Source: Microbacteriaceae bacterium
GTDB lineage: Bacteria > Actinomycetota > Actinomycetes > Actinomycetales > Microbacteriaceae
Direction of reading: 5' to 3'
Length of the DNA stretch: 64,000 bases
NCBI GenBank assembly: GCA_025352325.1
Contig: JANXTR010000045.1
Span: forward strand, 186,001 to 250,000
How positions within the stretch are numbered: position 1 is the first letter of the stretch; each line of letters starts with the position of its first letter. The translations under genes were made by a program, and so were the position numbers. Below are positions 20,349 to 24,606 of this stretch, one piece after another. A model generated the notes under the pieces. That model had not been told where the DNA came from and made no database searches. It saw only the letters and a program-made list of their open reading frames with translations.

Positions 20349-22529
20349 ATGGCCACACCCGGCCGCAGTCCTGGAAGTAACAGTTCCCGCAACATCAAGT
20401 CCGGCAGTAAGACTGGCAGCCGTCAAGGCTCGCGCCGTGGCGCCCCGCAGCAGCAGCAGCGGCGTCGCCAGCACCAGGACGAAGCCGGTGTCATCCCGGT
20501 GCTCGCCCGCACGGTGCGCGCCATCGAGAACTCCGCCGAGCGCGGCAAGGTCAACCCGGCGAACCGCACCCGCTTCCGCGTCGTCGCGGTGCTGGTGCGC
20601 GAGGAGCGCGCCCGTATCAAGGGCGACAAGGAGCTCAGCGACGCCGAACGCGTCAAGGAGCTCACCCGCCTCGACGGCATCGCCACGATCATGGCGAAGA
20701 CCGCCGCCCGTGACACCACCCTCATCCAGCTGCTGACCGACAATGCGCCGCTCACTCCGGCCGCGCTCGAGATGCGCCGTGCCATGCTCATGGAGGCCGG
20801 TGGCGAGCTCAGCCCCGACGACCTGATCGTCGTCACCGAGGCCCCGGTCAAGCCGGCCGTGGAGGAGCGCCAAGTCGTTCCGCAGTCGGTGAAGCAGTTC
20901 CAGATGTCGAACCCGTTCCTGGCCCCCGACTTCTCATCGTCGAACGCTCCGGTCTCGACCACGAACCGTCTCGCGAACTGGGAGCTCATCGAGCCCCTCT
21001 TCCGCTCCTTCGAGGTCGGCGTCGGCGGGGTTGCCAGCATGGATCTGCCAGAGGCGCGCTCGCTCGCGACGCCCGGTGGCATCGAGCTGATGCGTCACCA
21101 GGCCCGCTTCATTGAGAGCGCCCGCGCGGGTCACCGCAGCTACCTGCTCGCCGACGAGCCCGGGCTCGGCAAGACCGCTCAGGCGCTGCTCGCCGCGAAT
21201 GTGACGAGCTCCTATCCGCTGCTGGTCGTCGTCCCGAACGTCGTGAAGGTCAACTGGGCCCGCGAGGTCGAGAAGTGGACGCCGCAGCGCGTCTCGACCG
21301 TCGTCCACGGTGACGGGGCCGACATCGACGCCTTCGCCGACGTCGTCATCGTCAACTACGAGGTGCTCGATCGGCACGTGGCCTGGCTGTCGCGTCGCGG
21401 CTTCAAGGGCATGGTCGTCGATGAGGCCCACTTCATCAAGAACAAGGACTCGCAGCGCTCCAAGAACGTTCAGGCTCTCTCGAAGAGCATTCGTGCGGTC
21501 ACGCCTAAGGCGCTGATGATCGCTCTCACCGGAACGCCCCTGATCAACCAGATCGAGGACTTCCGCATGATCTGGCAGTTCCTGGGCTGGATCGACGACA
21601 AGAAGCCGCTGACCGAGCTCATGCGCCGCCTCGAGGAGACCGAGCTGGATCCCGGTGACAACGGGTTCTTCCGTGCCGCGCGCGATTCCGTCGTCGACAT
21701 GGGCATCGTGCGTCGCAAGAAGGTGGACGTCGCTGCCGACATCCCTGCGCGTCGCGTCGCCGACATCCCGGTCGAGCTCGACGGCGAAGCCGGCCGCTCG
21801 ATCCACGAGGCCGAGGCCGCGCTGGTCACCCGACTCGTGGAGCGGTACCGCCGCGTCATCGCGACGCGTCCGGACTCCGACCCGGCAGACATCATCCGGC
21901 TGGTGGCCGCGGCGGAGCTCGAGGAGACCCGACAGGCGGGCGGTGACGGCAGCGGAGACAACGTCTTCACGATGGTCCGCAAGATCGGCCAGGCCAAGGC
22001 CACGCCCGCAGCGGACTACACGGTCAACCTGGCCAGGAACGTCGGCAAGGTGGTGTTCTTCGCGAAGCACATCGATGTCATGGACACCGCCGAGAAGCAC
22101 TTCGCTGCGGCTGGCCTCACGACCGTCTCGCTTCGCGGCGACCAGACCTCGAAGGCCCGTCAGCTGGCGATCGACTCGTTCACCAATGATCCGGATGTCG
22201 CGGTCGCGGTGTGTTCGCTGACCGCCGCCGGCGTCGGGGTCAACCTGCAGGCCGCGTCCAACGTGGTGCTCGCGGAACTGAGCTGGACCAACGCCGAGCA
22301 GACGCAGGCGATCGACCGCGTGCACCGCATCGGCCAGGAGCTGCCCGTCACCGCGTGGCGCATCATCGCAGCGGGCACGCTCGACGGCCGTATCTCGCAG
22401 CTCATCGACGCGAAGGCGGGCCTCGCGGCTCGCGCGCTCGACGGCGAGGCGGCGCTCGATGTGGCCGAGGGGTCCGTGCAGCTTGAGGCGCTCATCGCGG
22501 TGCTGACGGATGCCGTGGGGCAGCTGTAG
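20349..22529 (+). CDS. SNF2-related DEAD/DEAH-box helicase
   Basis: LLADEPGLGKTAQALLAA (Walker A), GMVVDEAHFIKN (DEAH), IALTGTPLINQ, QAIDRVHRIGQ. Confidence 0.93.
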   Translation: MATPGRSPGSNSSRNIKSGSKTGSRQGSRRGAPQQQQRRRQHQDEAGVIPVLARTVRAIENSAERGKVNPANRTRFRVVAVLVREERARIKGDKELSDAERVKELTRLDGIATIMAKTAARDTTLIQLLTDNAPLTPAALEMRRAMLMEAGGELSPDDLIVVTEAPVKPAVEERQVVPQSVKQFQMSNPFLAPDFSSSNAPVSTTNRLANWELIEPLFRSFEVGVGGVASMDLPEARSLATPGGIELMRHQARFIESARAGHRSYLLADEPGLGKTAQALLAANVTSSYPLLVVVPNVVKVNWAREVEKWTPQRVSTVVHGDGADIDAFADVVIVNYEVLDRHVAWLSRRGFKGMVVDEAHFIKNKDSQRSKNVQALSKSIRAVTPKALMIALTGTPLINQIEDFRMIWQFLGWIDDKKPLTELMRRLEETELDPGDNGFFRAARDSVVDMGIVRRKKVDVAADIPARRVADIPVELDGEAGRSIHEAEAALVTRLVERYRRVIATRPDSDPADIIRLVAAAELEETRQAGGDGSGDNVFTMVRKIGQAKATPAADYTVNLARNVGKVVFFAKHIDVMDTAEKHFAAAGLTTVSLRGDQTSKARQLAIDSFTNDPDVAVAVCSLTAAGVGVNLQAASNVVLAELSWTNAEQTQAIDRVHRIGQELPVTAWRIIAAGTLDGRISQLIDAKAGLAARALDGEAALDVAEGSVQLEALIAVLTDAVGQL

Positions 22530-22564: not shown

Positions 22565-22623
22565 AACTCTCAACCATCTAGCGAAACTTCACGGGTTGTC
22601 CGCGTTTCCAGGCTGAGTATTGT
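22565..22623 (+). promoter_or_regulatory. promoter module 1 (upstream element plus -35 TTGTCC, 16 bp, -10 TATTGT)
   Basis: CTCTCAACCATCTAGCGAAACTTCAC upstream; TTGTCC 22596-22601; TATTGT 22618-22623. Homologous, with identical spacing, to the module at 23063-23119. Confidence 0.55.
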
Positions 22624-22629
22624 CATGTC

Positions 22630-22995
22630 TACCGGAAGGCCGAACCGCAAGGTGAGGCACGAAAGTAACAGAAAGACCCTCGGGTCTCGACGAACCGCTC
22701 GCGCGGTGTTGGGCGGTGCTTGCACCGCTTGGCGCTGGTGCGGGGGGAACGCGGAACCGGGGGTCTTTCGTTTGAGCCCCTGTTCACCCCGCGTGCCACC
22801 CCTCCCGTTTGTACCCCGTTCTATCCGCAAAGCTGCGGACACCCGCTCTGGGGGCAGCGAATGCTTGATGGTCTCACTACATTCAGAAGTGCACTAGTTG
22901 GGGGACTAGCGGCGGCGGTGGTCAGTCACATCGCGTTCCGTCATACGGGGGTATTCACGGAACCGCGGACAGACCACCGCCGCCAGTATTTTCTT
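22630..22995 (+). ncRNA. candidate structured small RNA 1 with intrinsic-terminator-like 3' end
   Basis: Long-range stem GAAAGACCC (22671-22679)/GGGTCTTTC (22761-22769). Hairpins GCGGTGC-TT-GCACCGC (22713-22728), TCCGCA-AAGC-TGCGGA (22824-22839) and CTAGT-TGGGGG-ACTAG (22894-22909). A 13-bp perfect inverted repeat GGCGGCGGTGGTC (22911-22923)/GACCACCGCCGCC (22972-22984) is followed by AGTATTTTCTT. Confidence 0.5.
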
Positions 22996-23062
22996 CACCC
23001 AGGGCCCCCATCAGGTCGGCTCTCGCCCGCCGAGGTGCGCGACGGTTCAGCCGTCCGTGAAT

Positions 23063-23119
23063 CTCTCAACTCTCTAGTGAGAGTTGACCTATTGCGCGCT
23101 GTTCACGATTCGGTAGTGT
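23063..23119 (+). promoter_or_regulatory. promoter module 2 with palindromic operator
   Basis: TCAACTCTC-TAGT-GAGAGTTGA (23066-23087, 9-bp perfect arms); TTGCGC 23092-23097; 16 bp; TAGTGT 23114-23119; then CATGTCAACCGAAA, versus CATGTCTACCGGAA in copy 1. Confidence 0.55.
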
Positions 23120-23125
23120 CATGTC

Positions 23126-23565
23126 AACCGAAACAGCGCAACCCGAACATCCGTGGAGTAATCCGCGAATGCGACGGCCGCAGCCGGTGCTGAGAAGGCG
23201 ACGTTGGAGCGATGTCGCGGAGTGATCCGCGAGAGAGTTCCGGCGGCCGAGACCCCGCAGATCCGACGCTCCCATGTGTCGGGGACGCGGACGACCGGCG
23301 GCCCGATCGGCGCGCCGGAGTCAGCCGGATGGTGGCGGGGCTCTCATGCCCGCTGCCTCCCTGCCGACCGAGACGACGGAGGTCCCGCCACGTGTGGTGA
23401 TGACCGACGAACCGGATGCGGGCTCTCGCACTGCTGAACGAACGGTCCTGTGAAGGATGGTTCAGACGGCCGCTGCGGAGCTGCCCACCTCCCGAGAGCT
23501 CGCGGGGCGTGGCGCGTTGGATCGACCCACAGAAGTGCCCGGATTTCGCGACCCGGGCACTTCGT
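23126..23565 (+). ncRNA. candidate structured transcript 2 (sRNA or short-peptide mRNA)
   Basis: Follows promoter module 2. Hairpin CTGAAC..TCCT-GTGA-AGGA..GTTCAG (23434-23465). No convincing protein-coding gene before the 23532-23563 hairpin. Confidence 0.35.
23532..23563. terminator. hairpin terminator between convergent transcripts
   Basis: GAAGTGCCCGG-ATTTCGCGAC-CCGGGCACTTC, an 11-bp perfect stem just before the end of the minus-strand gene at 23598. Confidence 0.6.
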
Positions 23566-23597
23566 GTGTACAGGGGGTAGGCGAGCCGTCCGACCCC

Positions 23598-24146
23598 TCA
23601 GCGTGAGCTGTTCTCGGTGCGCCCCCGCACGATCCCGATGAAGGTCTCGACGGCCGGAGTGGTCGCGTCGATCGGCCAGACCAGGCTGATCCACGTCGAG
23701 GGCGAGTCGCGCAGGGGTCGGGCGATCACGTCGCGGCGGCCGAGCACCCGGGCGAGCGACTGCGGCATCCTGGCGATCCCGACGCCCGCGGCGACCAGCT
23801 CGAGAGTGTCGGCATCCTGACCAGGCAGGAGGTTCTCGCCGTCGAGGTCGTTCGGCGCGAGCCGTTCGCCAGCCTCGAGCGCGGCGAACAGGTGATCGCG
23901 CGAGGCGACGACGACGGGCAGCTCTTCATAGAGCCGGATGGCGCTGAACTCGTCGTCGGCGGCGGTGTCGCGCAGGAACGCCGCATCCGCGTCACCCCCG
24001 CGCAGAGCCTCGATCGCCTCCGCCGCCGAGGAGGGCCGCAGCTCGAGACGCTGCCGCCGCATCCGCTCGCGCCAGATGCGCTCCCATTTCGTCGGCGTGA
24101 CGCCTGGCACGAACGCCACGCGGAACGTCGGCAAAGGGTCGGGCAT
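23598..24146 (-). CDS. LysR-type substrate-binding domain protein without HTH
   Basis: MPDPLPTFRVAFVPGVTPTKWERIWRERM...GIARMPQSLARVLGRRDVIARPL; no N-terminal HTH. Divergent from DUF5997. Confidence 0.8.
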   Translation of the reverse strand: MPDPLPTFRVAFVPGVTPTKWERIWRERMRRQRLELRPSSAAEAIEALRGGDADAAFLRDTAADDEFSAIRLYEELPVVVASRDHLFAALEAGERLAPNDLDGENLLPGQDADTLELVAAGVGIARMPQSLARVLGRRDVIARPLRDSPSTWISLVWPIDATTPAVETFIGIVRGRTENSSR

Positions 24147-24225: not shown

Positions 24226-24606
24226 ATGCCCAGACCCCAGTTCATGAAGCCCGAGACCGCGGCGAAGAAGCTCGAGGTGCTGCTGGCCGCGACGCCGGCC
24301 GAGTTCCAGGCGCGCGAACTCCGCCGCGAGGAGGTCGCCGCGCTGCAGGCGAGCCCGCCCGAGTGGCTGGCGACGCTGCGACGCGAGGGGCCGCATCCGC
24401 GCCCGGTCGTCGCCCAGCGCCTGGGCATCTCGAACTCCGGGCTCGCCCGCGGCGGGATCACCGAACCGCTCACCACCGCCGAGATCACTGCGCTGCTCGA
24501 GGAGTCGCCGCGCTGGCTCGAGTTGGAGCGCGACAAGCTCAAGGCCGTACGTGCCGAGGCCACGCGTCTCAAGCGCGAGAAGGCCGCCGCCGCAACGAAT
24601 GCTTAG
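24226..24606 (+). CDS. DUF5997 family protein
   Basis: MPRPQFMKPETAAKKLEVLLAATPAEFQ...HPRPVVAQRLGISNSGLARGGI. Confidence 0.8.
   Translation: MPRPQFMKPETAAKKLEVLLAATPAEFQARELRREEVAALQASPPEWLATLRREGPHPRPVVAQRLGISNSGLARGGITEPLTTAEITALLEESPRWLELERDKLKAVRAEATRLKREKAAAATNA

Follow-up and report, generated by a model that had tools for sequence, protein, structure and literature searches.

A cassette of three predicted non-coding RNAs in part of the Microbacteriaceae, one of which may pair with 6C RNA by loop-loop contacts

Introduction

Bacterial sponge RNAs other than RsaI, which is introduced below, include chb for ChiX, SroC and AgvB. 6C, an established RNA of the phylum with paired C-rich hairpin loops, is widespread in Actinobacteria, including the tuberculosis group. 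From what is reported of the work of Mai et al. 2019, 6C binds mRNAs via these C-rich loops. When overexpressed, it inhibits the growth of M. smegmatis (PMC8628891). In S. aureus, RsaI uses a G-rich domain to bind other sRNAs at their C-rich tracts (PMC8383071). A limited search of the open-licence literature yielded no RNA partner that controls 6C.

OLE, GOLLD and HEARO represent a class of large bacterial non-coding RNAs of unknown function. Ms1, one of the Ms1/6S-like RNAs of Actinobacteria, is recognised across genera by its neighbouring genes, a HAD hydrolase gene and others (PMC9130861).

Here, we analysed a window (the whole stretch of DNA under study, 64,000 nucleotides) from the genome of a Microbacteriaceae bacterium. 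Within it, a gap of ~1 kb without protein genes appears from its sequence to be a cassette made up of three genes for non-coding RNAs, which we named A, B and C. The three are previously undescribed structured RNAs, and it is highly probable, given the comparative evidence, that all of them are real as structured, non-coding RNA elements.

RNA B resembles 6C (RF01066) in that it also has two hairpins, each with a conserved homopolymer loop, the second hairpin being long, rich in GC and similar to a terminator. Unlike 6C, it carries G5 instead of C-rich loops, matches no Rfam family, lies at another locus and looks like a complement rather than a copy; given the G5 loops and a cmscan search of the window that returned no 6C, we do not count B as a member of that family. 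With RsaI it would share the pairing of a G-rich domain of one sRNA with C-rich tracts of others (PMC8383071), but B is unrelated to RsaI and the sponge RNAs in sequence and host group, both of its contacts would be hairpin loops, and the pairing is a predicted one. RNA C is structured, a few hundred nt long and has a closing stem in relatives, as in Ms1/6S-like RNAs. It differs from Ms1 by its many branches, its very variable length and the lack of an Rfam match, and an assignment as Ms1 was rejected because the genes flanking it (SNF2 helicase and a LysR substrate-binding domain or aminotransferase IV) are unlike the Ms1 neighbours. The covarying, multibranched RNA C of genus g81 (~265-530 nt) also recalls the OLE/GOLLD/HEARO class, from which it is set apart by having no Rfam match, by its modular length and by its tie to a dedicated twin promoter.

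Results and Discussion

Three predicted RNA genes in a gap of ~1 kb

The gap lies downstream of a SNF2-family helicase gene (20349..22529, + strand; Pfam PF00176/PF00271), which serves as the syntenic anchor. On its other side follows, in the window's genus, a gene for a stand-alone LysR substrate-binding domain (LysR-SBD; 23598..24146, - strand), in place of which most other carriers have an aminotransferase IV gene. A DNA search matched the whole gap in a genome of the same genus (70% identity); in other genera it matched parts of the gap. Twelve genomes from several genera have SNF2, box 1, A, B, box 2 and C in this order on a single contig. With Rfam 15, the window gave no match at the gathering cut-off and only one chance-level match, located outside the gap, at a relaxed threshold; the cmscan search suggested in the preliminary description thus left the gap without a match at either threshold.

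That description had interpreted the gap as harboring an undescribed pair of co-regulated RNAs. This interpretation is only partly supported, since a third, better conserved RNA with a different promoter (B) was overlooked and the RNAs number three instead of two. What stands is that A and C are structured, non-coding, undescribed and apparently co-regulated, and that both covary in relatives.

Structure, promoter and distribution of RNA B

RNA B is the best conserved of the three RNAs. Based on a covariance model and a comparative fold, it spans 22891..22993 (+ strand) and comprises two hairpins and a tail, AGTATTTTC. Hairpin 1 (CTAGT-TGGGGG-ACTAG, 22894-22909) presents loop 1, UGGGGG (22899..22904, + strand), which reads UUGGGGG with the preceding U. 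The long hairpin, GGCGGCGGTGGTC..GACCACCGCCGCC (22911-22984), has the tip ATAC-GGGG-GTAT; its loop 2 carries a G5 run (22947..22951, + strand) that is invariant in all homologues checked. The fold of B reaches a z of -6.7.

The covariance model detected B in 26 of 400 family genomes. Re-alignment of 25 of these 26 sequences left 93.8% of cells paired, with double-sided change in 25 of 34 pairs and 106 double-changed cells, compared with 26 for shuffled and 11-24 for slid partners. Six further homologues, missed by the model, lie beside box RNAs (described below) in genera g96/g97; hairpin 1 is not kept in them, but both G5 runs are retained, and G5 is present in both loops of 32/32 homologues (26/26 model matches plus these six). 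Outside the family, a 248-genome sample of the order yielded no convincing B, with one weak partial match. When 85,462 species (GTDB-wide) were scanned for exact copies of an 18-mer from B, 13 matches resulted, all of which appear to correspond to known B loci, the named ones being Pseudolysinimonas, Homoserinibacter, Protaetiibacter and Schumannella MAGs. Cultured carriers are Pseudolysinimonas kribbensis, P. yzui, Homoserinibacter gongjuensis and Protaetiibacter mangrovi. The range of B is limited to a part of this one family.

The predicted promoter of B (22837..22883, + strand) was delineated by comparison and consists of a conserved block, GGACACCCGCTCTGGGGGCAGCG, in the -35 region and the -10 element TACATT (22878-22883). 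A TAnnnT-like -10 is found in the homologues seven nt before GCACTAG, and the spacer is unconserved in sequence and near-constant in length. The block resembles GnnACCC..TGGGGGnAGCG, with TGGGG starting ~43 nt upstream of the predicted B start in the listed homologues, and is similar in g96/g97. Here a G/C-rich block (GACACCC..TGGGGGCAGCG) replaces the -35 hexamer at a near-constant distance, which suggests that an activator or an unusual σ factor may be involved.

Predicted loop-loop pairing of RNA B with 6C

The genome to which the window belongs contains one 6C RNA, on a contig other than that of the window (G000:C31:107362-107435, - strand, locus L066), and both of its open loops read UUCCCCCCAA. 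This RNA scores 40.6 bits, below the Rfam gathering cut-off of 47, though both hairpins and the C6 loops are intact. The 6C RNAs of several other Microbacteriaceae also fall under the cut-off, so that annotation at this threshold may miss 6C. Because of these low scores, we built a family-specific 6C model, which found exactly one 6C in each B carrier tested. All 26 carriers, the six further ones and G002 have one 6C, with 5 or more C in the loops.

The UUGGGGG of B loop 1 is perfectly complementary to the CCCCCAA that both loops of 6C contain in the window's genome, and loop 2 offers its G5 to the C5 of 6C. Computed B-6C loop duplexes amount to -13.2 and -11.6 kcal/mol with loop constraints ignored, and in the fold of B the G runs are mostly unpaired, except for the final G in each of them. 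The complementarity to the active region of 6C is conserved: all 32 homologues have G5 in both loops and all those genomes have 6C, the match extending to 7 bases in most carriers.

In the mode of action that we favor, B would engage the 6C of the same cell by loop-loop base pairing, UUGGGGG of loop 1 with CCCCCAA and the G5 of loop 2 with C5. It would thereby occupy the C-rich loops through which 6C binds mRNAs, and with these loops occupied B would act as an antagonist or partner of 6C. We propose tentatively, giving it somewhat less than an even chance, that B pairs with 6C by such contacts, beside two co-regulated RNAs; an anti-6C role of B we regard as possible rather than probable. If true, B with its mirror-image loops would be a tool to switch 6C off and would allow a direct test of the role of 6C.

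Alternatively, A, B and C could be real RNAs while the G5 loops of B bind a protein or C-rich mRNA stretches, with only an incidental match to 6C, a reading that may well be correct though we would not call it likely. As a partner, GGGGG has low complexity and could form pairs with C-rich RNAs other than 6C or be bound by a protein, and the G5 is invariant even where the flank matching 6C differs (UC- or CC-type loops in B, AA-type loops in 6C): five genomes (G011, G034, G288, G136 and G244) combine a UCGGGGG loop in B with unchanged AA-type 6C loops. Moreover, 6C is widespread in the family with or without B, so co-occurrence alone carries little weight. GA-type 6C loops, GATTCCCCCCGATC, occur in genomes without detected B, ten of which were tested and have no B beside the helicase gene. 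Against an incidental match, 6C is the established C-rich-loop RNA of this phylum, is present in each carrier tested and shows the 7-base match in most of them. Three genomes of genus g71 with the B loop UCGGGGG have the 6C loops CCCCCCGA, a matching change that counts as one lineage. As a test of co-variation between the loops of B and 6C, the flanking base is a weak one, and it fits in this lineage but not in others.

Twin boxes and promoters of RNAs A and C

As had been described, two modules 496 bp apart (22569-22640 and 23065-23136) align without gaps; they are identical at 47 of 72 positions. The best gapless 72-mer identity within the gap (49/72) was reached by none of 300 dinucleotide shuffles (mean 36.6, maximum 43). 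The common core of the modules is a 22-bp dyad, TCAACYATCTAGYGARACTTSA, located flush upstream of a TTGnnn-16-TAnnnT promoter. Box 1, TCAACCATCTAGCGAAACTTCA (22570..22591, + strand), is the presumed activator site of RNA A, based on conservation across genera and the constant offset to the TTG. Box 2, TCAACTCTC-TAGT-GAGAGTTGA (23066..23087, + strand), the presumed activator site of RNA C, is indeed the perfect palindrome with 9-bp arms noted earlier.

Both modules contain the -35 and -10 elements and the 16-nt spacer previously assigned to them. The putative promoter of A, TTGTCC-16-TATTGT (22596..22623, + strand), has its -35 at 22596-22601 and its -10 at 22618-22623, with a predicted start at ~22630; that of C, TTGCGC-16-TAGTGT (23092..23119, + strand), has TTGCGC at 23092-23097 and TAGTGT at 23114-23119, with a predicted start at ~23126. 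Since a scan with the plain σ70 consensus detected neither of them, the support for these promoters is comparative: the TTG is found at the same offset in all 47 distinct box promoters, and TAnnnT follows after exactly 16 nt in 32 of them. A and C would be transcribed from these twin σA-type promoters. The constant TTG offset places the dyad directly before the -35, a common position for activator binding.

A 29-letter box pattern, TCAACYMTCTAGYGARANTTNACNNNTTG, matched 31 of 400 family genomes and 12 of 85 genera, with at most two matches in any genome, and its reversed control gave 0 matches in the 400 genomes. In the window's genome, the box occurs only at the two reported sites even if up to three mismatches are allowed. 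Carriers of the full cassette have two boxes per genome, and several genera have retained the pair. Genus g65 has twin boxes at another locus, 202 or 330 bp apart, each of which drives a predicted short RNA; at L185 and L186 of this genus, the short box RNAs are tandem and near-identical, as if duplicated in place.

Taken together, A and C are apparently two co-regulated RNAs, and a dedicated DNA-binding activator would most likely use the two boxes and little else. The identity of this box-binding regulator was sought but not found. With a promoter box serving no more than two RNA genes per genome, whose bodies range from ~80 to 530 nt, this regulon is unusual, and it provides a route to finding its regulator. 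The more comprehensive view of the locus as a clade-specific cassette, in which B would disarm 6C by double loop-loop kissing while A and the large multibranched C are under a regulator that targets only their genes, seems to us unlikely to hold as a whole.

Structure of RNAs A and C

Both A and C are predicted to fold into stable, terminator-ended RNAs. RNA A (approximately 22630..22776, + strand; comparative fold) has a 5′ stem followed by a long hairpin that resembles a terminator, GAAAGACCC..GGGGGTCTTTC. The tip of this hairpin varies freely, but its middle (CTCGACGAACC / GGAACGCGG) is nearly invariant. Among 14 sequences, 95.9% of cells are paired and 8 pairs show double-sided change, compared with 3.8 for shuffled and 0-5 for slid partners; the fold z ranges from -4.7 to -6.9. 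In the window's species, the tip (22693-22755) is extended to a long GC-rich stem that is absent in most relatives.

RNA C (approximately 23126..23566, + strand) is long and multibranched, with several GNRA-capped hairpins and a terminator hairpin, GAAGTGCCCGG..CCCGGGCACTTC, at 23532-23563; the RNA C of relatives has a stem closing the 5′ and 3′ ends. For nine sequences of genus g81, we obtained a 140-pair multibranched structure with this closing stem and 92.6% of cells paired. In these, 36 pairs change on both sides, compared with 15 for shuffled and 4-9 for slid partners, figures that favor the structure because it was derived from the alignment on which it was scored, with the two controls guarding partly against this. 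The window's RNA C stands outside this alignment and is conserved in the sister species G001. Compensatory changes, named beforehand as a check, are thus present in both A and C in relatives.

The RNA at the C position varies in length from ~115 to 530 nt between genomes. Within a genus, whole blocks of ~100 nt are gained or lost (L046 and L041 versus L042 and L051), as if RNA C were modular. A hammerhead-like reading of its start (CCGAUGAGG) was rejected, as it is not general, is absent from the window's copy and has no Rfam match.

Between genera, the bodies of the box RNAs differ greatly in both length and sequence, in contrast to a nearly invariant promoter. This would be expected if the box promoters served transcription itself or insulation between convergent genes and A and C were by-products with strong terminators instead of functional products. 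We consider this improbable in view of the covariation in both RNAs and the near-invariant internal motif of A.

Genomic setting of the cassette

In almost all carriers, the cassette lies directly downstream of the helicase gene. The gene itself was found in all 28 other family genomes tested, and none of these has B or a box within 1.5 kb beyond it; no divergent B was found beside the helicase gene in the 28 genomes, which lack a covariance model match. In a tree of the helicase, 21 carriers form one branch (support 100/100) and two further ones, G136 and G244, fall into a neighbouring group; genera g96/g97, found later, are left out of this tree. Given this location, the gap could also be a long 3′ UTR of the helicase gene that contains terminators and gives rise to processing products, with no separate RNA genes. 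This explanation is very improbable, because each of the elements comes with a conserved promoter of its own, other genomes have the helicase gene without the cassette, box RNAs lie elsewhere in G020, G034 and g65, and G024 has its B at a distance from the helicase gene. B is also found without boxes in G131, G074, G143 and others.

That the gap encodes small proteins is the least probable of all, for although it contains possible ORFs of 54-157 aa, the five tested belong to no Pfam family, 11 of 13 indels relative to the sister species are not multiples of three and break the frame, and conservation follows base pairs. A protein-coding gap was thus rejected, in agreement with the earlier view that neither module is followed by a convincing gene; third-position coding conservation had been named as an argument against RNA genes, and the gap appears non-coding.

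The neighbouring LysR-SBD (23598-24146) lacks a DNA-binding domain and adjoins a divergent DUF5997 gene (24226-24606). The same pair of genes is found again in other genomes, for example at L048, L049, L143 and L188.
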